A DNA stretch of 64,000 bases from positions 1-64,000 of the forward strand of contig PHET01000007.1 of assembly GCA_002841275.1 (NCBI GenBank), in the 5' to 3' direction. Position 1 is the stretch's first letter; each line of letters opens with the position of its first letter. Shown piece after piece: positions 6,175 through 60,152 of this stretch. The position numbers and the translations under genes are program-made. The notes beneath the pieces were generated by a model that searched no databases, was not told where the DNA came from, and saw only the letters and a list, made by a program, of their open reading frames with translations. This DNA comes from Actinobacteria bacterium HGW-Actinobacteria-7. Lineage in GTDB: Bacteria > Actinomycetota > Coriobacteriia > Anaerosomatales > PHET01.

Positions 6175-7110
6175 ATGGCAACGCTCAAAGAGCTGACTTC
6201 GAACCCCGAACGCCTTGCCGGCGGCCACCGCCTCTGTGCGGGTTGCGGCGCCTCGATAGCCGTTCGTCAGATCCTGCTTGCGGCTGGTGACACCCCGCTG
6301 GTCGCGGGGTGCGCTACCGGGTGTTTGGAGGTCTCGACGACCATCTACCCGTACTCGTCGTGGCGCGTACCGTTCATCCACAATGCGTTCGAGAACTCGG
6401 CCGCGACGGTCTCGGGTGTCGAGGCCGCATTCAAGGGTCTGCAGCGCGCCGGCAAGATCCCTGCGAACAAGAAGATGAAGTTCGTGGCGTTCGGCGGCGA
6501 CGGCGGCACCTACGACATCGGCCTGCAGTCGCTCTCCGGTGCGATGGAGCGCGGGCATGACATGGTCTATGTCTGCTACGACAACGGCGCGTACATGAAC
6601 ACCGGCATCCAGCGCTCCAGCGCCACACCGATGGGCGCGTGGGCGACGACGTCTGAGGTCGGCAAGGCGCAGCAGGGCAAGCAGCAGCGCCGCAAGGACC
6701 TCACCTCGATCATGGCCGCGCACGGCATCCCGTACGCTGCGCAGGCGTCCGTGAGCCACTGGCGCGATCTGACCACCAAGGCCGAGAAGGCCTTTGCTGT
6801 GGAGGGCCCCGCGTTCCTGAATGTGCTGGCACCGTGTCCTCGCGGATGGCGCACCGCGTCCAACCAGGCGATCGCCATCGCCAAGTTGGCCGTGCAGACC
6901 GGTTTCTGGCCGATGTTCGAGGTCGAAGACGGTGTCTGGCGTCAGACGGTCAAGGTGCCCGAGCGCAAGCCCATCGAGGAGTTCCTGAAGCCTCAGGGCC
7001 GATTCAAGCACCTATTCACGCCTGAGAACGCGGAGTTCCTGGTGACGATCCAGGCGGAGGTCGACAAGTACTGGGAGTACATCCAGAAGCGATGCGCCTG
7101 CGAGGGCTAG
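6175..7110 (+). CDS. porB: 2-oxoacid:ferredoxin oxidoreductase, beta subunit
   Basis: The beta subunit (311 residues) binds thiamine diphosphate and a [4Fe-4S] cluster. Cysteines of the cluster are seen in the N-terminal HRLCAGCGASIAVRQ, with a further one in GCATGCLEVST and another near the C-terminus (the tail reads KRCACEG). The Mg/ThDP-binding motif GGDGGTYDIGLQSLSG is intact. ATG 6175 is preceded by AGGAGGG. A strong hairpin closes the operon. Confidence 0.96.
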   Translation: MATLKELTSNPERLAGGHRLCAGCGASIAVRQILLAAGDTPLVAGCATGCLEVSTTIYPYSSWRVPFIHNAFENSAATVSGVEAAFKGLQRAGKIPANKKMKFVAFGGDGGTYDIGLQSLSGAMERGHDMVYVCYDNGAYMNTGIQRSSATPMGAWATTSEVGKAQQGKQQRRKDLTSIMAAHGIPYAAQASVSHWRDLTTKAEKAFAVEGPAFLNVLAPCPRGWRTASNQAIAIAKLAVQTGFWPMFEVEDGVWRQTVKVPERKPIEEFLKPQGRFKHLFTPENAEFLVTIQAEVDKYWEYIQKRCACEG

Positions 7111-7137
7111 TCGAGCGCATGCGACACAGATGATCAG

Positions 7138-7173
7138 AGAGGGCCCCGGACATATCACATTCCGGGGCCCTCT
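7138..7173 (+). terminator. Hairpin terminator after the por operon
   Basis: A perfect 13-bp stem (7138-7150 with 7161-7173, core AGAGGGCCCCGGA) encloses a 10-nt AT-rich loop. The T-tract after it is short (TGT). It lies 27 bp after porB, so it is probably an intrinsic terminator. Confidence 0.8.
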
Positions 7174-7220
7174 TGTGCGTATACTTCGCGAAGTGGTACT
7201 GACCTGACGCCGGAGAAAGA

Positions 7221-9812
7221 GTGTGCTGCGGACCAGTCCGCACAAGGACAATGAAGCCCAGACTGCCTGCGATATCCCGTCTCTACGGCCAGATCGTACT
7301 ACCACTGCTCATCGCCTCGGTGGCAGTCGGTGTCATCGCCACGCTCACAGCCGCCTACTTCCTTGATGGACTCGCCTCGCAGTGGGCCTCGGGCGTTGCT
7401 GAGAGTGCAACGCACACCATCGTTCACCAGTTCGAGAGTCAGGTCGTGCAGCTGCAGGACGACGCACGCATCGTCACCACGAACCTGGATATCAGCCAAG
7501 GGATCGTCGCGGGAGGCGTCCCCTTCCTTGCATCAACCGCCGCGGCGCGAAACCTCGGGATCGATTTCGACGTGCTGCTCATCCTGGATTCCACTGGCCG
7601 TGCGGTCGAGATCTCAGGCGCACCCAGGATCCAACCCGGAGACAGCCCGCTCGAACAAGCGAGTATCTGGCGTGACGAAGAGCTCTGGACCGGGTTCACC
7701 CGGATCGGTGACTCGTTCGCGTTGACCACGGTGAGGCCACTCTCAGCGAGCCCTCAACATCAGACCGTGGTGATGGCGCGCACGATGGACGCGCGACTTC
7801 TGGAGAGTCTTGGCGTCGATGAGAACGACGCGTTTGGCTTCTACGACGCGCGCGGCCGGAATGTCGCAGTGTCGGTGGGTGCGGGGTTGGAGTCTGACGA
7901 GAGTGCGGCGCTCACCAAAGCACTCAAGGATCCCTCGGCGAAGGTGAGTACCCTGCTTGCCCGGGCAGCTCGCTCGGGAAGCGGCGTCGAGGAGTTGAGT
8001 TCCAGCTCGTTGGAGTACGAACTGTACGCAGAGCGGGTGCCGCTGGGGTCGAATCAGGCGTCCGAATCCGCGGTGTATGTCGTTGGCGCCATCAGCAAGG
8101 GTGTTCCGGCGACGGCCGGTGAGGCGGCGCGCAACCTCATTGGACTGTGGTCCGTGGTTGCGGTCATCGTGCTGGTCGGTCTGGGTGGCTGGGTCGCCTA
8201 CCGTGTATCAGGCCCGCTGGTGGAGCTGTCCGCGGGCGCACGACGAATCGCCGACGGCGACTTCAGCACCAAGGTGCACGTCAAGAACTCCTCGGAAATC
8301 GGCGAACTGGCCGAGAGTTTCAACGAGATGACCGACTCACTTCGTGAGCGCTCAGAATCTCTGACCAAGAAGGTGCTCGAACTCGCTACGCTCTATGAGA
8401 TGAGCCGCGCTCTGGGCTCGACTCTGGACATGGAAGAGCTGCTCGGCTCGGTACTGGATTCTGCGCTCCGTATCTTCGATCTGGATCTGGGCTACGTGGC
8501 GCTTCGTGATCGGGATACCGATACGCTTGAGGTTCGTGCGATCAGGGGCAGTCGTGGCACTGATGCGGACGGTGCTGTCCGATCCTCGATGTCCGAGTGG
8601 GTCGTTCGTGAGGGCCGCCCTCTCATCTTCAACCCGGATGCGAATTCGTCTTACGAGCAGATAGATACCGTGACAGGGGCGAAAGCGGCCCTGTGTGTTC
8701 CGTTGATGTCCAGCGAGGGCACCATCGGTTCGGTGACCGTGGGCTCCAGCGATGCCCGCTACCGCTTCAACAGCGATGACGTCAGGTTGCTCTCGACGAT
8801 CGCCAACCATGTCACCATCGCCATCGGCAACATCGAGCTGTTCTCCAGCCTTCAGGATGCCTATCTCGCGACGGTGCGTTCGCTGGCGGCGGCGGTCGAT
8901 GCGAAGGACTCATATACACGCGGTCATTCCGAGTACGTCGCTGGCTACGCGACACTCATCGCCGAGCGGTTGGGGCTGGCACACGACCAGAAGATCGCGC
9001 TCGAGATGGCGGCCTATCTGCACGACATCGGCAAGATCGGGGTGTCGGAGGACATCTTGCTCAAGCCTGGTCGGCTGAGCGAAGGCGAGATGGTGCAGAT
9101 GCGCCATCACCCGCTGATCGGCGCCAATATCCTCAAGCCGGTCGCATTCCCGTGGGCCATCACGCCGGTGGTCAGGCACCACCATGAGGCGTGGGATGGA
9201 AGCGGCTACCCGGCGGGACTCAAAGGCGAGGAGATCCCGCTGCTGGCAAGAATCCTCACGGTCGCGGACAGCTACGAGGCGATAACGGCCGATCGACCCT
9301 ACCGAGAAGGGCGTTCGCCGCGTGAGGCTTTGGCTGAGCTGGAGGAGTGCGCCGGCACGCAGTTCGACCGTCGCATCGTGGCCGCCTTCAAAGAGGCCAT
9401 CCTCGAGGAGCTGGACGGTGAGGAGATCTTGCTTGAGTCGACGTCCGAGAGCATCGCTCCAGAAGAGGCCAGGGCGATCTTCTCGGTATTGGTGGATGGG
9501 GTGCTTTCGAGCTTCCGCAAACTGGGAGGGCCGCGACTGGCCATCAATGTGGAGCAGGAGCTCGATGCCTATCTCGTGGCGGAGCCCCTGCCGTTCAGGG
9601 TGTCTCACGGCCGGATCACTTTCAGCGACGATGCAGTGGCCGATCTGGCCACTGAGATCGGGCAGATGAGGCGCGTCCTCGCGCAGGTCGAAGTCATCAT
9701 AGGTCGGTTGTCCGGAGGCACGCTGGTGGAGCACTTCTTCGCCGATGCGCTGGGCGATCTGACTTCGCGTATGCAGACTCTCGCACGCGAGTTGGGACTC
9801 TACGCCGACTGA
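7221..9812 (+). CDS. Membrane sensor with HAMP, GAF and HD-GYP domains
   Basis: This protein of about 863 residues probably hydrolyses cyclic di-GMP. An N-terminal membrane helix (about residues 24-47) precedes an extracytoplasmic sensor region of about 240 residues and a second membrane helix (about 303-325). Then follow a HAMP domain (GPLVELSAGARRIADGDF), a coiled helix, a GAF domain (about 390-545) and an HD-GYP domain (about 550-720). The HD-GYP domain has HDIGKIGVSEDILLKPG, HHHEAWDGSGYPAG and VADSYEAITADRPYR, all the metal-binding residues expected. A C-terminal extension of about 140 residues is unassigned. GTG 7221 has GGAG 5 bp upstream; ATG 7251 is an alternative start. Confidence 0.9.
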   Translation: MCCGPVRTRTMKPRLPAISRLYGQIVLPLLIASVAVGVIATLTAAYFLDGLASQWASGVAESATHTIVHQFESQVVQLQDDARIVTTNLDISQGIVAGGVPFLASTAAARNLGIDFDVLLILDSTGRAVEISGAPRIQPGDSPLEQASIWRDEELWTGFTRIGDSFALTTVRPLSASPQHQTVVMARTMDARLLESLGVDENDAFGFYDARGRNVAVSVGAGLESDESAALTKALKDPSAKVSTLLARAARSGSGVEELSSSSLEYELYAERVPLGSNQASESAVYVVGAISKGVPATAGEAARNLIGLWSVVAVIVLVGLGGWVAYRVSGPLVELSAGARRIADGDFSTKVHVKNSSEIGELAESFNEMTDSLRERSESLTKKVLELATLYEMSRALGSTLDMEELLGSVLDSALRIFDLDLGYVALRDRDTDTLEVRAIRGSRGTDADGAVRSSMSEWVVREGRPLIFNPDANSSYEQIDTVTGAKAALCVPLMSSEGTIGSVTVGSSDARYRFNSDDVRLLSTIANHVTIAIGNIELFSSLQDAYLATVRSLAAAVDAKDSYTRGHSEYVAGYATLIAERLGLAHDQKIALEMAAYLHDIGKIGVSEDILLKPGRLSEGEMVQMRHHPLIGANILKPVAFPWAITPVVRHHHEAWDGSGYPAGLKGEEIPLLARILTVADSYEAITADRPYREGRSPREALAELEECAGTQFDRRIVAAFKEAILEELDGEEILLESTSESIAPEEARAIFSVLVDGVLSSFRKLGGPRLAINVEQELDAYLVAEPLPFRVSHGRITFSDDAVADLATEIGQMRRVLAQVEVIIGRLSGGTLVEHFFADALGDLTSRMQTLARELGLYAD

Positions 9813-9927
9813 CCCGCTCGTGGTGGCGCCGTTCAGGCCGAATCACTACACTGAATAGAAACCTTAACGGGCTGCGTTCAAGCGCCGCCCGAGATGTGTT
9901 GGCAGTCCATTTGATGCAGGGGTGTAC

Positions 9928-50142: not shown

Positions 50143-52725
50143 ATGAGACTCGATAAGCTCACCATCAAGGCGCAGGAAGCGCTGGAGGCCTCCAGCGGCA
50201 TCGCCGAGGAGTTCGGCGCCGGTCAGATCGAACCCGAGCACCTGCTCAAGGCACTGCTCGACCAGGCGGAGGGCATCGTGCGCCCCATCCTGTCGAAGGT
50301 GGGCGCCGACCCCCACGGGCTCGACGCGGCCGTGGCAGATGCGCTCTCGAAGGCCCCCAAGGTGTCTGGCGCTACTGCGCAGACGGGTATGGGCCCGCGC
50401 TTGAACACCATCCTCTCGGATGCCTTCAAGATCGCCGAGAAGATGAAGGACGCCTACGTCTCAAGTGAACACCTACTGGTGGCGCTGGCGTCAGACAAGG
50501 GCGAAGCAGGTCGAGCGCTCGAGCGTGCCGGCGCATCGGCCTCGCGGCTGACCGCCGCTGTCGATGAGCTGCGCCGAGGCTCGAAGGTCACCGATCAGAA
50601 CTCCGAAGCGCAGTTTCAGGCGCTCGAGCGCTACGGTCGCAACCTCACGCAGGCTGCGCGCGATGGCAAGCTCGATCCGGTCATAGGCCGAGTCGATGAG
50701 ATCCGGCGGACGATCCAGGTCCTTTCGCGCCGTACCAAGAACAACCCGGTGCTCATCGGCGAGCCAGGGACGGGCAAGACGGCGATCGTCGAAGGGCTCG
50801 CGCAGCGCATCGTCGCAGGTGACGTGCCCAGCTCGCTGCGCGACAAGGACGTGATCACGCTCGATCTGGCTTCGATGGTCGCGGGCGCGAAGTACCGCGG
50901 TGAGTTCGAGGACCGGCTCAAGGCGGTGTTGCGCGAGGTCGAGGAGGCGCAAGGGCAGATCGTGCTCTTCATCGATGAGCTGCACACCATCGTGGGCGCG
51001 GGCGCCGCTGAGGGCGCGATGGATGCGGGCAACATGCTCAAACCAGCGCTCGCACGAGGCGAGCTGCATGCCATCGGCGCGACGACGCTCGACGAGTACC
51101 GCAAGCACATCGAGAAGGACGCTGCTCTCGAGCGCCGATTCCAGCCGGTGTTCGTGGGTGAGCCCAGCGTCGAAGAGACGATTGCAATCCTGCGCGGGCT
51201 CAAAGAGAAGTACGAGGTCCATCACGGCGTACGCATCACCGACGGCGCGATCGTGGCGGCATCCGAACTCTCGAACCGCTACATCGCAGATCGCTTCTTG
51301 CCCGACAAGGCCATCGACCTGATCGATGAGGCGGCCAGCCGGCTGCGCATCGAGATCGACTCGATGCCGGTTGAGATCGACACCATCGCGCGTCATCTCA
51401 CACAGCTTCAAATCGAGGAGATGGCGCTGACCAAGGAGAAGGACGCCGCGAGCAAGGAGCGCCTTGAGGCGTTGCGTGAAGAGATGGCTCAGGTCAACGA
51501 GAAACTCGCTGGCATGAGGGCGGCCTGGCAGAACGAGAAGGACGTGATCACCACCGTCCAGGAGCGCAAGGCAGAGCTTGACGAAGCGCGCGGTGAGGAA
51601 GAGCGCGCTACCCGTGACGGTGATCTGACCCGTGCCGCCGAGATCCGCTACGGCCGTATTCCTCAGCTCGAGGCCTCTATCGCTGAGGCGGATGCGAAGC
51701 TGCGCCTACAGCAGGAATCCGGCGCGATGCTCAAAGAAGAGGTGACCGAAGAAGAGGTCGCTGAGGTCGTGAGTGCGTGGACCGGCGTGCCGGTGAGCCG
51801 CATGATGCAGGGAGAGATGGCTAAACTCATGCTGCTCGAAGACGTGCTGCACCAGCGGGTCATCGGCCAGGACGAAGCGGTAGCCGCGGTCTCGGGCGCG
51901 ATCCGTCGCTCCCGGGCAGGCCTGTCCGATCCCAACCGGCCCATCGGCAGCTTCCTGTTCCTGGGCCCTACAGGCGTGGGCAAGACCGAGCTGGCCAAGA
52001 CGCTCGCGAACTTCCTGTTTGATGACGAGCGCGCGATGGTGCGCATCGACATGTCCGAGTACATGGAGAAGTTCAGCGTGCAGCGCCTCATCGGGGCGCC
52101 TCCGGGCTATGTGGGCTACGAAGAAGGCGGCCAGCTGACAGAGGCCGTCCGCCGCAGGCCCTACTCGGTGATTCTGCTCGATGAGGTCGAGAAGGCGCAC
52201 CCGGACGTGTTCGGGGTCCTGTTGCAGGTGCTCGATGACGGTCGGCTGACTGACGGCCAAGGCCGCATCGTCAGCTTCAAGAACGCGATCGTGATCATGA
52301 CGAGCAACGTGGGCTCCCAGTTCATCCAGCAGTTCGCCGAGGGTGGAGCCGATGAGACCGAGCGCGACCACATGCTGCAAGACGCGCTGCGTGCGACGTT
52401 CCGTCCCGAGTTCCTGAACCGCATCGATGACGTGGTGACGTTCCACGCGCTTTCAATGGACCAGATTGCGAGCATTGTTGTTCTCCAGCTTGAGGAAGTG
52501 CGCGTACGACTCGCCGACCGGAAGATCGCGTTGGTGCTCACCGACGCCGCTGTGGAGCGGCTGTCACTCGACGGCTTCGACCCGGTGTTCGGCGCACGGC
52601 CGCTGAAGCGCATGATCCAGCGCGAGGTGGTCGATCGCGTCGCCAAGGCACTCATCGAGGGGCGCATACACGAGGGCGACACGGTGACGGTGGACGTCAC
52701 CGACGAGGGATACGTGGTGAGCTAG
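50143..52725 (+). CDS. clpB: ATP-dependent disaggregase ClpB
   Basis: ClpB (860 residues) resolubilises aggregates together with DnaK. It has the N-terminal Clp-N repeats (to about residue 145), AAA-1 with [13 protein letters not shown] (about 205), the coiled M domain (about 405-520; [20 protein letters not shown]) and AAA-2 with [12 protein letters not shown] (about 607). The C-terminal part ends in the ClpB D2-small domain. The start [17 protein letters not shown] is typical. It is 210 bp after hspR and probably in the same regulon. Confidence 0.97.
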
Positions 52726-52866: not shown

Positions 52867-54234
52867 GTGCTCAGAGACTACGTCTTCCATGACTTCACTC
52901 GAAGCTTCTGCAGCAAGTGCCATGAGCTGTGCGACGCGAAGATCATCATCAAGAACGGGAGTGCCTTTCTCCTCAAGAACTGCCTCACTCACGGTGAGGA
53001 GATCGAGGTCTTCGAGGAGGACGCGAGCTACCTGTTAGAGCGGCAGCGCTACGACAAGCCGGGGAACCGGATTCGTTCCGACACCGTCGTCGAGCGGGGC
53101 TGCCCGTATGATTGCGGGCTGTGTCCTGACCATGAGCAGCACACCTGCATCGGGCTGATTGAGATCACGACCCACTGTGATCTTGGTTGCCCGGTCTGCT
53201 ACGCCGACTCCGGCGCTGGGGAGCACCTGTCGCTTCAGCAGATTGAAGCGATGATGGACTTCTACAAGGCCCGCGAGGGTGGCAGACCTGAGATCCTGCA
53301 GATCGGTGGTGGCGAACCCACCACGCACCCGGACATCGTCGAGATTCTGCGGATGGCGAAGAACAAGAAGTTCAAGTACGTCATGCTCAATACCAACGGG
53401 TTGCGGATTGCACGTGACAAGCCCTTCGCGGAACTCCTCGCTTCGCTCACGCCCGGGTTCGAGGTATACCTTCAGTTCGATGGTGTCACGGACAGGACTT
53501 ACAAGAAGCTTCGCGGTGCCAAGCTGTGGGACACGAAGCTGCACGCCATCGAGAACCTCGGGAACGCTCGCGTCCCAATCACACTGGTCGCCACCATCAC
53601 GCGTGGAGTCAATGACGGCCAGATCGGCGACATCGTGAAGTTCGGTCTGGCAACCGACTACGTCCGCGGCGTGAACTTTCAGCCGATTGCCTTCTTCGGC
53701 CGCACCAACATCGCGGACGTGAAGAACCGCACGACGCTGTCAGGCATTCGGCGCGAGATCGAACGCCAGACCGGTGGGCTCTTCCTCCGGGAGGACATCA
53801 TCCCGCTTCCGTGCGACATTGACCGAGTCGCCGTGACCTACGCAGTCAAGCGAGATGACGTGTTCGTGCCTGTCGTGCGCAAGATCAGGCTCGAGGGCTA
53901 TCTCGAGCTGATTGACAACACCATGGACTTCCGCGCCGAGGATCTGGTCAGGAATGCGTTGGCCGCGTCGATCACCAAGGGGATGGTCTGCGATTGTTTC
54001 AAGCTCCGTGACGAGATCTCAGAGATCCTTCCTGAAGGCTACCTCACGTGGTCGTCCAAGCAGCGTGCCGAGTTCATCGACACCAACACGTTTCGGATCA
54101 CTATCTCCTCGTTCATCGACCGCTACAACTTCGATGCGAAGTCGATGAGGAAGGAGTGCGTTCACGTCATCACTCCTGATCTCAAACGCATTCCGTTCTC
54201 GGCATACAACATGGTGCACAGGAGCCGCCAGTGA
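52867..54234 (+). CDS. COG1964/MJ0619-type radical SAM enzyme (tetraether-synthase family)
   Basis: This 455-residue radical SAM protein has the N-terminal zinc-type region of the family (CSKCHELC at 15-22 and NCLTHGEEI). A second motif, GCPYDCGLC (79-86), is followed by HTC (94) and the SAM-cluster motif CDLGCPVC (104-111). ILQIGGGEPTTHPDIVEI and IPLPCDIDRV follow. The same plan is seen in archaeal MJ0619/Tes, which joins lipid tails in membrane-spanning lipids, and in related bacterial enzymes. GTG 52867 has GGGGAG 4 bp upstream; TTG 52828 is an alternative. The stop overlaps the next start (GTGA). Substrate here is unknown. Confidence 0.87.
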   Translation: MLRDYVFHDFTRSFCSKCHELCDAKIIIKNGSAFLLKNCLTHGEEIEVFEEDASYLLERQRYDKPGNRIRSDTVVERGCPYDCGLCPDHEQHTCIGLIEITTHCDLGCPVCYADSGAGEHLSLQQIEAMMDFYKAREGGRPEILQIGGGEPTTHPDIVEILRMAKNKKFKYVMLNTNGLRIARDKPFAELLASLTPGFEVYLQFDGVTDRTYKKLRGAKLWDTKLHAIENLGNARVPITLVATITRGVNDGQIGDIVKFGLATDYVRGVNFQPIAFFGRTNIADVKNRTTLSGIRREIERQTGGLFLREDIIPLPCDIDRVAVTYAVKRDDVFVPVVRKIRLEGYLELIDNTMDFRAEDLVRNALAASITKGMVCDCFKLRDEISEILPEGYLTWSSKQRAEFIDTNTFRITISSFIDRYNFDAKSMRKECVHVITPDLKRIPFSAYNMVHRSRQ

Positions 54235-54863
54235 GCCTGTGGGAGATGCTGAAGGCCGCGCCGTTGCTGTCGCAGCCACCGTTGGCGATTGCGGTGAACG
54301 TGACGGTCTTCGTAGCCGTTCTTCTGATCGTGGCCTCGGTTGTGATCGACTTCAGAGACTACCACCGGCAGAATCGCGAAGTCGTACACGGCGATCGGAG
54401 CTGGGTTGAGACCGGGAGTATGACGGGGTTCTTCGTCGTCTACTATCTGGTCGTCCGGTTTCGGCTGGGGGAGGTGGCGATGCCCTACGCCGTCAGGTCA
54501 GCGATGATAGTGGTCGGGCTCGCACTCATGATTGTGGGCGCGGTGTTCAATGTCGTTGGACGCCTGCATCTGAAGTCGAACTGGGCGAACCAGATCAAGA
54601 TCTACGAGGGTCACTGGCTGGTGACCACCGGACCCTTCTCGGTTGTGAGACACCCGCTCTACGCATCTCTGGTCTGGATGTTCCTCGGTGGGGCGTTGAT
54701 CTACTCCAACGTTATCGCGCTGGTGCTTACGTTCGGCGTATTCGTCCCGATGATGTATGTTCGCGCCAAGAAGGAAGACGCCCTCTTGAGGGAGGCCTTC
54801 GGTGCTCGGTTCGATGCGTACGAGTGCTCGACGGGCAGGCTATTCCCGAGAATGCCGAGGTAG
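54231..54863 (+). CDS. Isoprenylcysteine/phospholipid methyltransferase-like membrane protein
   Basis: This 210-residue protein has about five membrane helices and the C-terminal signature of the ICMT/PEMT methyltransferases. That signature includes GPFSVVRHPLYASLVWMFLG, then KKEDALLREAFGARFDAY. The family transfers a methyl group from SAM to a lipid or lipidated substrate at the membrane. GTG 54231 overlaps the radical SAM stop by 4 bp. The substrate is not predictable from sequence. Confidence 0.88.
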   Translation: MSLWEMLKAAPLLSQPPLAIAVNVTVFVAVLLIVASVVIDFRDYHRQNREVVHGDRSWVETGSMTGFFVVYYLVVRFRLGEVAMPYAVRSAMIVVGLALMIVGAVFNVVGRLHLKSNWANQIKIYEGHWLVTTGPFSVVRHPLYASLVWMFLGGALIYSNVIALVLTFGVFVPMMYVRAKKEDALLREAFGARFDAYECSTGRLFPRMPR

Positions 54864-54865
54864 CC

Positions 54866-55297
54866 GTGGACGCAGCTATCGTTCAACGAAACGCTTTCGT
54901 GTTCTGTCGCTACTCGGTGGCCATCTTCGTGTGGGCCGCTTTGCTGATGCACAGCGCATGGGTGCTGGGAGCGGTGTTTGCGATTCTCGCGCTTTCTGCC
55001 GCGCTCAAGGTCCAGAACTCCCCGATGGTGCGGCTATACACGGGCACTCTGGGTCGCTATGTGCCGTCCGATGAGGTCATCCTCGGAGTGAAGGCGATGC
55101 GATTCGCCCATTCTGCGGGGGCAGCGATGGCGCTGGCCGCCTTGGCACTGGCTGCAGCAGACAGCCCCTTCGCATGGCCGTTCGTCGCTGTATTTGCGGT
55201 CCTGAAGACTACCAGCGCGCTGGGATTCTGCCCTGCGTACAAGCTGTACGGCTGTGTCGCCAAGGGCGGCTGCTGCGCGATGACCGGGAAGCGATGA
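54866..55297 (+). CDS. DUF4395-family membrane protein
   Basis: This 143-residue protein has about four hydrophobic segments. The start VDAAIVQRNAFVFCRY and the C-terminal cysteine-rich tail (GFCPAYKLYGCVAKGGCC) match DUF4395 proteins, which often accompany redox or lipid genes. The cysteines at the tail could bind a metal or form a disulfide. GTG 54866 is 2 bp after the methyltransferase stop; the stop overlaps the next ATG (ATGA). Confidence 0.8.
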   Translation: MDAAIVQRNAFVFCRYSVAIFVWAALLMHSAWVLGAVFAILALSAALKVQNSPMVRLYTGTLGRYVPSDEVILGVKAMRFAHSAGAAMALAALALAAADSPFAWPFVAVFAVLKTTSALGFCPAYKLYGCVAKGGCCAMTGKR

Positions 55298-56055
55298 TTC
55301 CGGACACTCACACCTCGCCCGTCGGCTGGGGGATCCGACCGGTCTTGCTTGTGGTCGGCGGATACCAAGTGACCTCCTACGGTGTATTCGTGCTGATCGG
55401 GCTTCTTGCTGCGATCGGGCTGTACTACTACAACACGCACGATCGGAAAGCGGGCAGCAATGGCCTGTACATCGCCGCAGCGGCGCTGGTGGGTGGAATC
55501 ATCGGAGCGAAGCTGCCCATCTGGATTGCATATGCCCCGCAGATCGTCGCAAGTCCCAACCCGGCTGTGCTGCTGTCGGGAAGAACGATCGTGGGCGGCA
55601 TCATCGGTGGAGTGATTGCGGTGTACTTCACCAAGAAGAGGCTCGGTATCAAGGAGAAGCTCGGCAACTACCTCGTGCCTTCGCTGTGCATCGGCATCTT
55701 GTTCGGGCGAATCGGCTGCTTCCTGACCGGCTGTTGCTACGGCAGTGCCACCGCGCTGCCCTGGGGGGTCGACTTCGGCGACGGTATCGGGCGTCATCCC
55801 ACGCAGCTGTACGAGGCGTTGTTCGTTATGGGGCTGTTCATCTACGCGCAGGCGACGTTGGACAGGTACGCTCCGGGTGAGCTGTTCAAACGGTTCATGA
55901 TCGTGTACTTCGGCTGGAGGTTCTTCGTCGAGTTCATCAGAGCCAGTCCTGTGTCAGCGCTCGGCCTGACGTACTATCAAGTCGCCGCTGTCATCGTGAT
56001 CTTCCTGTACGTGTGGCGGGTTTCAGTTGGTGTTCGAGAAAGGGGTACCAAGTGA
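55294..56055 (+). CDS. Lgt-like prolipoprotein diacylglyceryl transferase paralogue
   Basis: This 253-residue protein has about seven membrane helices and the Lgt hallmarks in modified form. SGRTIVGGIIGGVIAVYF occupies the place of the HGGLIGG region. GRIGCFLTGCCYGSAT takes the place of GRIGNFINGE, with extra cysteines, and HPTQLYEALFVMGLFIY follows. True Lgt moves diacylglycerol from phosphatidylglycerol to a lipobox Cys; the changed motifs suggest a paralogue with another lipid or acceptor. It is coupled to the neighbours by 4-bp overlaps at both ends. Confidence 0.85.
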   Translation: MIPDTHTSPVGWGIRPVLLVVGGYQVTSYGVFVLIGLLAAIGLYYYNTHDRKAGSNGLYIAAAALVGGIIGAKLPIWIAYAPQIVASPNPAVLLSGRTIVGGIIGGVIAVYFTKKRLGIKEKLGNYLVPSLCIGILFGRIGCFLTGCCYGSATALPWGVDFGDGIGRHPTQLYEALFVMGLFIYAQATLDRYAPGELFKRFMIVYFGWRFFVEFIRASPVSALGLTYYQVAAVIVIFLYVWRVSVGVRERGTK

Positions 56056-56540
56056 ACGAGGAGCCGAAAGAGGGCGAACAGGGTCTCGACTCCCCTGTCG
56101 CGCCGTTGCCAACGGCGCCGGATCCTCCGAGCTACTCCGTCGGTGGCTCGGCTACCACGCCTTCTGCGGACTCGCCTCAGAGGCTTGATCACCATCCCTC
56201 CTCAGTGGCCTACCCAGATGCGGTCGAAGCACCGAAGCGGAAGCTGGACGGGGGCTTCTTTGCCTTGGGACTGGTTACCCCTTTGCTAGCGGGTGCGCTT
56301 ACGACCCTCCCGATCAACATATTCGGCGAGGGCGCCCCGCCCCTCGCCTGGCTCGGATCGGTCCTGCCCATTGGAGTGTTCGTCGCCCAGCTGATCGCGT
56401 GGCTCGTTGGTCGAGTCAACGGCAACAATCGCCTTCGTAGCTGGGGACTCGGCGGCGTGGCGTCGGTGGCCATGATGGCGCTTGCCGGACTTCTCCTGTT
56501 CGGAGCATGCATGCTTACGTTGGGCGCATCCGGGTTGTAG
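56052..56540 (+). CDS. Small membrane protein with Pro-rich N-terminus
   Basis: This 162-residue protein has a disordered Pro/Ser-rich N-terminal region (residues 1-60). Three hydrophobic segments (about 68-85, 96-115 and 132-155) follow. GTG 56052 overlaps the Lgt-like stop by 4 bp, so it is the last coupled gene of the group. No family recognised. Confidence 0.75.
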   Translation: MNEEPKEGEQGLDSPVAPLPTAPDPPSYSVGGSATTPSADSPQRLDHHPSSVAYPDAVEAPKRKLDGGFFALGLVTPLLAGALTTLPINIFGEGAPPLAWLGSVLPIGVFVAQLIAWLVGRVNGNNRLRSWGLGGVASVAMMALAGLLLFGACMLTLGASGL

Positions 56541-57773: not shown

Positions 57774-59105
57774 ATGGACGTAGTAGCCTTGTCGAAACTG
57801 CAGTTCGCAGTGACCGTTGGCTACCACTTCCTCTTTGTTCCGCTCTCGATCGGCATCGGCCTCGTGTTGGTCTTGGCTGAGCGCCGGTACAACAAGAGCG
57901 GTAGCGTAGAGGACAAAGCAGCATCGGATTTCTGGATCAAATTGTTCACTGCGACGTTCGCGGTGGGGGTGGCGACAGGAATTGCGATGGAGTTCGCCTT
58001 TGGGACGAACTGGGCGACCTATTCGCGGTTCGTGGGTGACATCTTTGGCGCGCCGCTGGCGGCAGAAGGGCTGTTCGCATTCTTCCTCGAATCGACCTTC
58101 CTCGCCGTGCTGCTCTTTGGCCGCTCGCGCGTCTCGAGGAGATTCTTCTACACCAGCACTTGGCTTGTGTGGGGCGGGTCGCTCCTTTCGGCATTGTGGA
58201 TCATCATCGCGAACTCGTGGATGCAGACGCCGGCGGGCTACAAGATCGTGGGTGAAGGTGCGGCTCGCAAGGCGCAGCTCACCAACTTCTTCGAGGCCGG
58301 GTTCAATCCGTCCACGTTGCCCCGGTACTTCCATACGGTCGACGCCATTCTGATGGCGGGCGGCTTCATCGCTGTAGCGATGGCGGCACACTACCTGCGG
58401 CGCGGCACGCACACTGGTTTCGCGCGCAAAACGATGGCGACCGGCATAGCAATCGCAGGGATCACCACGGTCCTGATGCTGCCGATCGGTCACTGGCAGG
58501 CCGTGAACGTGGTCAACAACCAGCCCAGCAAGTTGGCAGCTTTCGAGGGCCACTGGGACGACGGGGCCGTGCCGCTGGGGATCATCGGGTATATCGACGA
58601 GACGAACGGCAAGACGGTGGGGTTGGCGATTCCCGGCGGTGTCAACCTGCTTGCTGGCGATTTCTCGCGCACCAAGTCCTACCCTGGACTCAACAGCTTC
58701 ACGCCTGCAGATCGTCCGCCTTTGCAGCTCAGTTTCCAGACGTATCACTTCATGATCCTGTTGTGGGGAGTGATGCTTGTTCTCGTCGCCTCCGCGTGGC
58801 TCCTCAACCGAGGCGGCAAGCTCGAGCGCAACAGGGCCCTTCTCGGCATGCTTGTGTGGTCTCCGGTGCTGCCGATGCTTTCGATCCAACTAGGATGGGC
58901 GGCAGCCGAGGTGGGAAGGCAACCTTGGATCGTGTGGGGTGAGCTGCGCACCGTCGATGCGATATCGAAGGCGGTGCCAGCCGGCGAGATCCTCACGACG
59001 CTCATCCTGTTCGTCCTGTTCTACACGGTGCTCTATGTGGCGTGGGGTCGGGTCGTGATCGGCATCATCAAACGCGGTCCGGAACTCGCAGAGGGGGTGG
59101 AGTAG
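57774..59105 (+). CDS. cydA: Cytochrome bd oxidase subunit I
   Basis: CydA (443 residues) is the quinol-oxidising, haem-carrying subunit of the bd oxidase, a high-affinity O2 reductase. LQFAVTVGYHFLFVPLSIGIG carries the axial His near residue 18. The Q-loop region (KLAAFEGHWDDGAVPLGIIG) is followed by a short loop, and GRQPWIVWGELRT appears near residue 380. The total length indicates the short-Q-loop type. It ends at a TAG directly followed by the cydB ATG. Confidence 0.97.
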   Translation: MDVVALSKLQFAVTVGYHFLFVPLSIGIGLVLVLAERRYNKSGSVEDKAASDFWIKLFTATFAVGVATGIAMEFAFGTNWATYSRFVGDIFGAPLAAEGLFAFFLESTFLAVLLFGRSRVSRRFFYTSTWLVWGGSLLSALWIIIANSWMQTPAGYKIVGEGAARKAQLTNFFEAGFNPSTLPRYFHTVDAILMAGGFIAVAMAAHYLRRGTHTGFARKTMATGIAIAGITTVLMLPIGHWQAVNVVNNQPSKLAAFEGHWDDGAVPLGIIGYIDETNGKTVGLAIPGGVNLLAGDFSRTKSYPGLNSFTPADRPPLQLSFQTYHFMILLWGVMLVLVASAWLLNRGGKLERNRALLGMLVWSPVLPMLSIQLGWAAAEVGRQPWIVWGELRTVDAISKAVPAGEILTTLILFVLFYTVLYVAWGRVVIGIIKRGPELAEGVE

Positions 59106-60152
59106 ATGGGACTGGGTGAGCTCTGGTTCGTACTGGTCGGCGTGCTACTCGCCGGCTACGCGATATTCGACGGCTTCGATCTGGGTGTGGGAACGCTCTA
59201 TCCTTTCTTGGGCAAGTCCGAGGCCGACAAGGCCGCTATGCGCATGTCGATCGGGCCCATTTGGGACGGCAATGAGGTGTGGCTGCTCACGGGAGGCGGC
59301 GCGCTCTTTGCGGCGTTTCCGGCGGTCTACGCCACGGTGTTTTCCGGCTTCTACATCGCGCTCATGCTGCTGCTGTTCGCGCTGATCTTCCGGGCGGGCG
59401 CCCTGGAGTTCCGCCATGTCGATCCGGCGTGGGCGAAGCTCTGGGACTGGGCGTTCTTCTTGGGCAGCGCAATCCCTTCGCTGCTGTTTGGTGTGGCAGT
59501 TGGAAACATCATCCGCGGCTTGCCGCTGACTGCGGAAGGCGAGTTCATCACCGGTGGTGGTGATCCGATCTTCCTCGCCAATCTGGTCACGGCGCTCAAC
59601 CCATACGCGATTGTCATCGGACTGCTCAGTGTCGCGTGGATTGTACTGCAGGGATCCACGTGGCTCTCTCTGAAGACCACTGGTGATCTGTACGAGCGCG
59701 CGAAGAAGACCCGCAAGGTCATGGTGGTGGCGTTTGGGGTCTTGTTGGCCGTCTCCGCCGCCGCTACCGCGCTGCTCGTACCCGGGGCGTTCGCCAAGGG
59801 CGTTGCGAGCCCGGCCGGCTGGTTGTTCGTCGTGCTCGCCATCGCTGGCACTGTGCTCGTGGCTATGGGTGCAGCACGTGGCGCGGACCGTACGAGTTTC
59901 TACGGATCGTCGCTCGCAGGAGCTTCCATGGTGGGCATCTGGGCGGCGTCGATCTTCCCGGCGCTCGTGCCTTCGATCGGACCGGGCGAAGCGCTCACCA
60001 TCGCCAACTCCCAGTCGTCTCCGTTGACGCTGACGGTGATGCTCATCATCGCGGGCATCGGCGTGCCGCTCGTGCTGTTCTACTTCTTCGTGATCTACAA
60101 GACGTACGCGGGCCGCATTGACAGCTCTTCAGTCACCAGTGGGCACTACTAG
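59106..60152 (+). CDS. cydB: Cytochrome bd oxidase subunit II
   Basis: CydB (348 residues) has about nine membrane helices. YAIFDGFDLGVGTLYPFLG is near the N-terminus and IGPIWDGNEVWLLTGGGALFA follows, both diagnostic. It starts directly after cydA. No cydCD genes follow. Its presence suggests at least microaerobic respiration or O2 detoxification in an otherwise anaerobic-looking gene set. Confidence 0.96.
   Translation: MGLGELWFVLVGVLLAGYAIFDGFDLGVGTLYPFLGKSEADKAAMRMSIGPIWDGNEVWLLTGGGALFAAFPAVYATVFSGFYIALMLLLFALIFRAGALEFRHVDPAWAKLWDWAFFLGSAIPSLLFGVAVGNIIRGLPLTAEGEFITGGGDPIFLANLVTALNPYAIVIGLLSVAWIVLQGSTWLSLKTTGDLYERAKKTRKVMVVAFGVLLAVSAAATALLVPGAFAKGVASPAGWLFVVLAIAGTVLVAMGAARGADRTSFYGSSLAGASMVGIWAASIFPALVPSIGPGEALTIANSQSSPLTLTVMLIIAGIGVPLVLFYFFVIYKTYAGRIDSSSVTSGHY

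Follow-up and report, generated by a model that had tools for sequence, protein, structure and literature searches.

A Tes-like radical SAM enzyme, an Lgt-like protein and a small cysteine-bearing membrane protein encoded together in bacteria and archaea: a candidate protein-lipidation system

What is the joint function, if any, of five tightly coupled genes that follow clpB in Actinobacteria bacterium HGW-Actinobacteria-7? The genes lie in a window of 64,000 nucleotides (contig PHET01000007.1, positions 1 to 64,000), this being the whole stretch of DNA that was analysed. They encode a radical S-adenosylmethionine (SAM) enzyme, a methyltransferase of the ICMT/PEMT type, a DUF4395 protein, a relative of the diacylglyceryl transferase Lgt and a small membrane protein. 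An earlier reading, made from the sequence alone, took the five genes for a lipid or lipoprotein modification operon. We find that the conserved core is not the five-gene set. It consists of the radical SAM gene, the Lgt-like gene and a gene for a small membrane protein that has a cysteine near its C-terminus. The explanation that we favor, with a probability of about 0.5, is a three-part system for protein lipidation, of which the operon would be one version and in which the Lgt paralogue would attach a lipid altered by the radical SAM enzyme to the cysteine of the fifth protein.

A conserved three-gene core

A pattern scan found relatives of the radical SAM protein (P0001) in three Actinobacteria metagenome-assembled genomes (MAGs; 73-76%) and a Coriobacteriia MAG (53%), with more distant ones (~49-50%) in a Syntrophomonas MAG and an uncultured archaeon; a profile search of whole genomes added others. 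In the clade that these proteins form, an Lgt-like gene lies beside the radical SAM gene at all 38 readable loci, 11 of them diverse and 27 (of 27) from a single order of Bacillota. The 38 cassettes span Actinomycetota, Bacillota and two archaea. Within the Bacillota order, 44 of 280 sampled genomes possess the cassette, and a plasmid collection yielded carriers in Persicobacter psychrovividus (Bacteroidota), Mycobacterium avium, M. branderi and Nonomuraea gerenzanensis. No relative was confirmed in a scan of viral contigs. Outside the cassette the surroundings differ from genome to genome.

Two forms of the cassette can be distinguished. In clade A, which includes the window, the order radical SAM, ICMT, DUF4395, Lgt is identical in loci L037-L039, L041, L062, L064 and archaeal L042/L056, so that Actinomycetota, Syntrophomonas-type Bacillota and an archaeon have one four-gene arrangement. 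The ICMT-like and DUF4395 genes are confined to this clade. Clade B is wider, with archaeal locus L067, loci L068 and L069 and all 27 loci of the Bacillota order, and keeps only the radical SAM and Lgt-like genes together. The sequence-only reading had proposed a comparison of gene neighborhoods across genomes as its check, and the four-gene order passes it: because the same order recurs in unrelated genomes, it is far beyond chance. At L067 the cassette adjoins genes read as encoding ribosomal protein L11, aIF5A and Spt5.

The third member of the core was recognized by its cysteine. P0005, the product of the fifth gene, has a Pro-rich N-terminus, three predicted transmembrane helices and a single cysteine (residue 153) within LLLFGAC, 9 residues from the C-terminus. 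Neither this protein nor the small proteins tested at other cassettes gave an above-threshold match in Pfam or NCBIfam. In the cassette small proteins the last predicted helix holds the cysteine, at a distance of 1-13 residues from the C-terminus. A strict form of this pattern was defined as a cysteine in the last 25 residues with a preceding hydrophobic, uncharged stretch, encoded within 350 nt on the same strand. By this criterion, which was drawn up when the first loci had already shown the pattern and whose thresholds were relaxed once before the final count, 36 of the 38 cassettes encode such a protein, compared with none of 29 loci that have a related radical SAM gene without an Lgt-like gene. 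The test set, comprising the 27 Bacillota-order loci and the plasmid records, was fetched afterwards. A similar test away from cassettes gave 5 of 335 background open reading frames (ORFs). As for the two cassettes missed by the strict test, L102 has such a small gene ~500 nt downstream, and in L056 a small protein encoded between the radical SAM and ICMT genes has a GAC motif where its first helix is predicted to end on the outer side.

These small proteins fall into several types (Zn-ribbon one-helix, multi-helix, clade-A and archaeal) that are not obviously homologous. Within each aligned type the cysteine column is invariant and most other columns vary; in the clade A relatives of P0005, G-x-C is conserved. 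In M. avium two tandem small proteins end in AGICTGLNP and AGYCTGLNP plus a short tail, Nonomuraea has one small protein with AGICTGINP, and a reading of frames in Persicobacter reveals a 59-residue ORF that overlaps the radical SAM stop and ends GTGICGSLLS. On the plasmids of M. avium (L136, 3198-6518) and M. branderi (L138, 2364-5557), two tandem small hypothetical genes lie between the Lgt-like and radical SAM genes. In the forms examined, charge patterns predict a cytoplasmic N-terminus and an external cysteine; for P0005 the loop charges (5-0-3-0) predict that the helix is entered from the cytoplasm, with the cysteine at its extracytoplasmic end. The cysteine of a bacterial lipobox has the same predicted position. 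Unlike a lipobox cysteine it does not follow an N-terminal signal peptide, and no such peptide ending in [LVI][ASTVI][GAS]C was found in P0005. CaaX-type prenylation of the fifth protein was considered and rejected, a CxxX-like tail being present among its relatives in L093 only. The sequence-only reading had counted the Pro-rich membrane protein as a fifth member of the operon; it is indeed a conserved component, and its likely role as acceptor had been missed.

Radical SAM loci without the cassette provide a comparison. At 26 loci encoding TrsS-like proteins of the same class, no cassette partner was present within ~1.5 kb, neither an Lgt-like gene nor a small cysteine protein. At L070 (7194-10919) a related radical SAM gene without Lgt is followed by genes for a methyltransferase and a 4Fe-4S membrane protein that ends in a YgaP-like GFCPTY domain. 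TrsS-like radical SAM and methyltransferase genes, again without Lgt, are found near CcdA and disulfide oxidoreductase genes on an M. vanbaalenii plasmid (L134, 3317-8357) and near DsrE, TauE and redoxin genes on a Haloarcula plasmid (L135, 185-7177). In L100 (G894 C39 270000-288000; 2767-12832) two Tes-like radical SAM genes are adjacent (7008-8426 and 8423-9817), with neighbors that are FabF-, FabG-, ACP- and FabZ-like, a hydrolase, a cysteine-desulfurase-like gene and an ICMT/PEMT-family gene; apart from the radical SAM and ICMT assignments these names come from reading translations. The row resembles a gene cluster for the biosynthesis of lipids or fatty acids.

The two core enzymes and their known relatives

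The families that the sequence-only reading had named for the first four genes were borne out by profile matches, to Radical_SAM plus an HMPTM zinc ribbon, ICMT/PEMT, DUF4395 and LGT, respectively. The plain label "radical SAM enzyme" had overlooked a kinship with Tes and TrsS. Over its full length the best named family for P0001 is NCBIfam TrsS (NF045646), with 335.5 bits for a cut-off of 490; its cassette relatives score 295-368 bits against this model. The Tes model (NF045702) gives 294.1 bits, below the trusted cut-off of 450. The nearest solved structure is that of Tes, or GDGT-MAS (M. jannaschii MJ0619, PDB 7TOL/7TOM), 7tol being matched with E values of 1.6e-67 by the P0001 sequence and 6.5e-112 by the clade profile. 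It was also the top structural match of an AlphaFold model of low confidence (predicted local distance difference test, pLDDT, 64). In a tree that leaves out the mycobacterial members, which were found later, the Lgt-linked enzymes form one group apart from Tes and the TrsS-like proteins (Shimodaira-Hasegawa-like approximate likelihood ratio test, SH-aLRT, 89, with several long branches). Judged by these comparisons of sequence, P0001 is a Tes/TrsS-family enzyme outside both named families and belongs to a third clade. A second close copy was not found in the window's genome.

P0001 resembles Tes in its overall fold, radical SAM core and N-terminal metal sites. It keeps the residues of the rubredoxin-type site (C15/C18/C39/H42; Tes C9/C12/C33/H36) and the Cys3His ligands of [4Fe4S]N (C79/C83/C86/H89; Tes C73/C77/C80/His), and the CX3CX2C motif of the radical SAM cluster is present (C104/C108/C111). 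The Tes ligands of these three sites were described by Lloyd et al. (PMC9433317). The C-terminal part differs. Here the cluster cysteines of P0001 are altered (C316, C377, C431), with C316 and C431 invariant in the window's clade according to the ligand table, and in nearly all Lgt-linked members Tes C455 is replaced by E or S and C470 by S or D. Met439 and Tyr459, which are invariant in 1000 archaeal Tes homologues (PMC9433317), correspond to Ser414 and Val434 in P0001. The tyrosine is absent from both clades, whereas position 439 is Ser or Thr in the window's clade and Met in most of clade B; loss of this methionine alone is not decisive, M439A Tes being still active according to the literature. 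Changed cysteines suggest that the cluster has another environment here, and the chemistry may differ too. A bacterial membrane-spanning lipid synthase, Mss, has been reported to share the Tes architecture (PMC13274423), and radical-mediated tail coupling has been proposed for bacteria. Thermotoga maritima, a member of a phylum reported to make membrane-spanning lipids, gave no match to the HMPTM zinc ribbon. The cassette family looks distinct from Mss at least in this domain, Mss sequences themselves not having been compared.

The Lgt-like protein (P0004) scores 119.9 bits against Pfam LGT, for which the gathering score is 24.9, and falls below the cut-offs of two NCBIfam lgt equivalog models (117.9 for 334 and 59.8 for 118.9). 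It is homologous to E. coli Lgt (PDB 5azb), with an E value of 6.7e-24 in a profile comparison; an AlphaFold model (pLDDT 67) had no significant match in the PDB. The cassette Lgts form one clade (SH-aLRT 98). The phosphatidylglycerol (PG)-binding residues R143, Y235 and R239 of the E. coli enzyme correspond to R139, Y205 and R209 in P0004, and in the residue table these positions, together with that of E202, are kept in 30 of 30 cassette Lgts. In E. coli Lgt the active site opens extracytoplasmically (PMC4728403), on the side where the cassette cysteines are predicted to lie in the forms examined, and the donor site, at the outer face, is made up of R143 and R239 (PMC4728403, PMC8689077). The sequence-only reading had spoken of altered motifs. 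This holds for the H103 position, at which the diagnostic change lies (see below), and not for the GCFxxGCCYG stretch. The cysteine at the N146 position (C142 in P0004) is present in 30/30 cassette Lgts and also in 4/11 housekeeping-type copies, so that GCCYG was rejected as a mark of the cassette form.

The cassette copy is an additional one in bacteria. The window's genome has three lgt-family genes, of which one is clearly the housekeeping gene, and a separate housekeeping lgt is present there and in all nine other cassette-bearing bacterial genomes checked. The two archaea carry the cassette copy only, and G1003, with a related radical SAM gene and without the cassette, has the housekeeping copy only. 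The third lgt-family gene of the window's genome (G000 C31 48436-49092; L007, L066) is divergent and has no radical SAM partner within the surrounding 9 kb. The Lgt-like gene is interrupted by an in-frame TGA in L092 (6102-6884) and by apparent frameshifts in L094 (6426-7206) and L105 (3821-4857), which may reflect decay or sequencing error. Selenocysteine at the TGA of L092 was rejected, as the stop falls in a variable loop.

Locus layout and accessory genes

All five ORFs, and the couplings described for them, were recovered (Table 1). The radical SAM and ICMT genes overlap at GTGA, the DUF4395 and Lgt-like genes at ATGA and the Lgt-like and fifth genes at GTGA, with a 2-bp gap between the ICMT and DUF4395 genes. 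The GTG start of the radical SAM gene is preceded by GGGGAG, which is like a Shine-Dalgarno sequence, and homologues begin at the same residue. clpB ends at 52725, 141 bp upstream, and the downstream neighbor begins ~50 bp after the fifth gene. A promoter-like site for the operon was looked for and none was found; a GC-rich hairpin 3' of the fifth gene is weakly better than shuffled sequences (z -2.0). Farther along, at 57774-60152 and outside the cassette, we identified by eye a gene for an Rrf2-like regulator followed by cydA/cydB (cytochrome bd oxidase).

Table 1. Features of the operon, with window coordinates.
Feature	Position	Strand	Basis or remark
Radical SAM gene (P0001, 455 aa)	52867..54234	+	Tes/TrsS superfamily, third clade; GTG start
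ICMT/PEMT-family integral membrane SAM methyltransferase gene (P0002, 210 aa)	54231..54863	+	Pfam ICMT, PEMT
DUF4395 membrane protein gene (P0003, 143 aa)	54866..55297	+	Pfam DUF4395
Lgt-like transferase gene (P0004, 253 aa)	55294..56055	+	Pfam LGT; extra lgt-family copy
Small membrane protein gene (P0005, 162 aa), proposed lipid acceptor	56052..56540	+	C-terminal membrane-cysteine criterion; charge-based topology; G-x-C in clade A relatives
TGC codon of the candidate acceptor cysteine	56508..56510	+	Sequence

The ICMT-like and DUF4395 proteins are probably accessories of clade A. P0002, conserved across that clade, scores 49.7 bits against Pfam ICMT and 46.3 against PEMT. It is similar to ICMT of PDB 4a2n (E 1.6e-15) in fold family and in a conserved VRHPLYASL segment, and differs in falling below the cut-off of the isoprenylcysteine methyltransferase model (NF040696; 87.7 bits for 160) and in its restriction to one cassette clade. 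P0003 scores 36.4 bits against DUF4395 (gathering score 24.5) and 22.2 against YgaP-like_TM, which is below the cut-off; it has invariant cysteines near the C-terminus (C122, C130, C136, C137) and a GFCPxY motif in common with the YgaP-like transmembrane domain. In L069 (14191-15645), ~2 kb downstream of the cassette, one gene joins an ICMT/PEMT domain to a sulfur-transport (YeeE/YedE) domain. Because of this fusion, and of the CPxY..C motif that likens DUF4395 to the YgaP membrane domain, a sulfur link of the accessories is possible.

Protein lipidation and its alternatives

The sequence-only proposal of a lipid or lipoprotein pathway is well supported, because Tes is the nearest structure, the PG-binding residues are kept and the genes co-occur, although the five genes are not the unit. 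In the scheme that we favor, the cytoplasmic Tes-like enzyme would draw hydrocarbon tails of phospholipids into its site and change an unactivated carbon, by joining, thiolating or another reaction. On the outer face of the membrane, the Lgt-like membrane enzyme would then transfer the diacylglyceryl part of the altered lipid to the small protein, the target being the single conserved cysteine where the last helix is predicted to reach the outside. In the resulting membrane protein a tail-modified lipid would be covalently bound. In clade A the methyltransferase and the cysteine-rich DUF4395 protein would be additions, perhaps methylating the product or handling thiols.

Several points weigh against this scheme. 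Judged from the residues, its main difficulty is the lost H103. In E. coli Lgt this histidine is essential, H103A/N/Q/R/Y being inactive (PMC4728403), and its position holds V, L, I or A in 30/30 cassette Lgts (V100 in P0004), as opposed to H, Y or F in 11/11 housekeeping-type copies. Therefore either the acceptor must be activated in another way or something other than diacylglyceryl transfer takes place; that C142 takes part in acceptor activation is speculation. The residues before the acceptor-candidate cysteine (GAC, GTC, NAAC, AIC) resemble a lipobox only loosely, and the small proteins might be subunits that accompany the enzymes and not their substrates. Further, without the Tes-type C-terminal cluster residues, tail-to-tail coupling by the radical SAM enzyme cannot be taken for granted. 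Finally, a single bacterial order contributed many of the 38 loci, which therefore do not count as independent; nearer ten than forty separate lineages are represented.

Alternatively, the cassette might serve membrane-lipid biosynthesis, the radical SAM enzyme making a membrane-spanning or tail-modified free lipid, the Lgt-like and ICMT/PEMT-like proteins remodeling head groups and the small cysteine protein acting as scaffold or regulator. Homology to Tes is in keeping with this, as are the proposal that bacterial Tes homologues function in the synthesis of branched glycerol dialkyl glycerol tetraethers (Zeng et al., PMC8941075) and the setting of the radical SAM pair in L100 among FabF/FabG/ACP/FabZ-like and ICMT/PEMT-family genes. 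We nevertheless consider it unlikely, since it leaves the recurrence of an Lgt-family enzyme with a C-terminal membrane cysteine unexplained and the Tes C-terminal cluster residues are not conserved; nor was a Ger/PlsA-type partner noted in the cassettes, no genome-wide search for one having been made. More improbable still would be a system for handling membrane thiols, sulfur or selenium. Cysteines in three proteins, the small one, the Lgt-like one and DUF4395 (GFCPxY..C, CC), would form a relay that supplies the radical SAM reaction with sulfur or reducing equivalents, and the Lgt fold would have a new use that does not involve diacylglyceryl transfer. The loss of H103 with a cysteine at the N146 position would fit such a relay, as would the YgaP-like character of DUF4395, the L069 fusion and the YgaP-like/4Fe-4S, CcdA, DsrE and redoxin genes near Lgt-less relatives. 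Those sulfur-type neighbors, however, occur mainly at loci without Lgt, most cassettes have no adjacent DUF4395 gene, and the phospholipid-binding residues of Lgt are kept. Each of the families is large and common by itself, and one might suppose that the genes are together by chance or are loosely connected, with no common function. This is scarcely credible: order and content are kept in distant genomes with otherwise different surroundings, and a neighborhood conserved in two domains of life refutes it.

A search of the open-access literature, with subscription titles and preprints outside its scope, found no account of a Tes-like radical SAM enzyme, an Lgt-like protein and a small cysteine protein combined, in agreement with the sequence-only reading, which knew of no described system with its combination of genes. 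The gene set is widespread and apparently undescribed. Each enzyme belongs to a known superfamily, with the radical SAM protein below the named-family cut-offs, and among the small proteins tested none reaches the cut-off of any family. We regard the cassette as a variant of protein lipidation with a real chance of being a new kind. More tentatively, and with some doubt, it may represent a new class of post-translational lipidation common to bacteria and archaea, in which tails altered by a radical SAM enzyme (possibly membrane-spanning or thiolated) are placed by a dedicated Lgt paralogue of different acceptor chemistry on the C-terminal membrane cysteine that a small protein provides for this purpose.

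The usual view of Lgt is that of one housekeeping enzyme, which acts on N-terminal signal peptides; Tes is commonly regarded as an enzyme of archaeal lipids. The roles of many bacterial Tes relatives have been left open (PMC9433317, PMC8941075). A link between a Tes-like enzyme and an Lgt through one cysteine would give part of the bacterial Tes family a specific, testable role and may constitute a new protein-lipid linkage. The cassette is found in cultured organisms (the Persicobacter, Nonomuraea and Mycobacterium records) and is thus open to testing.

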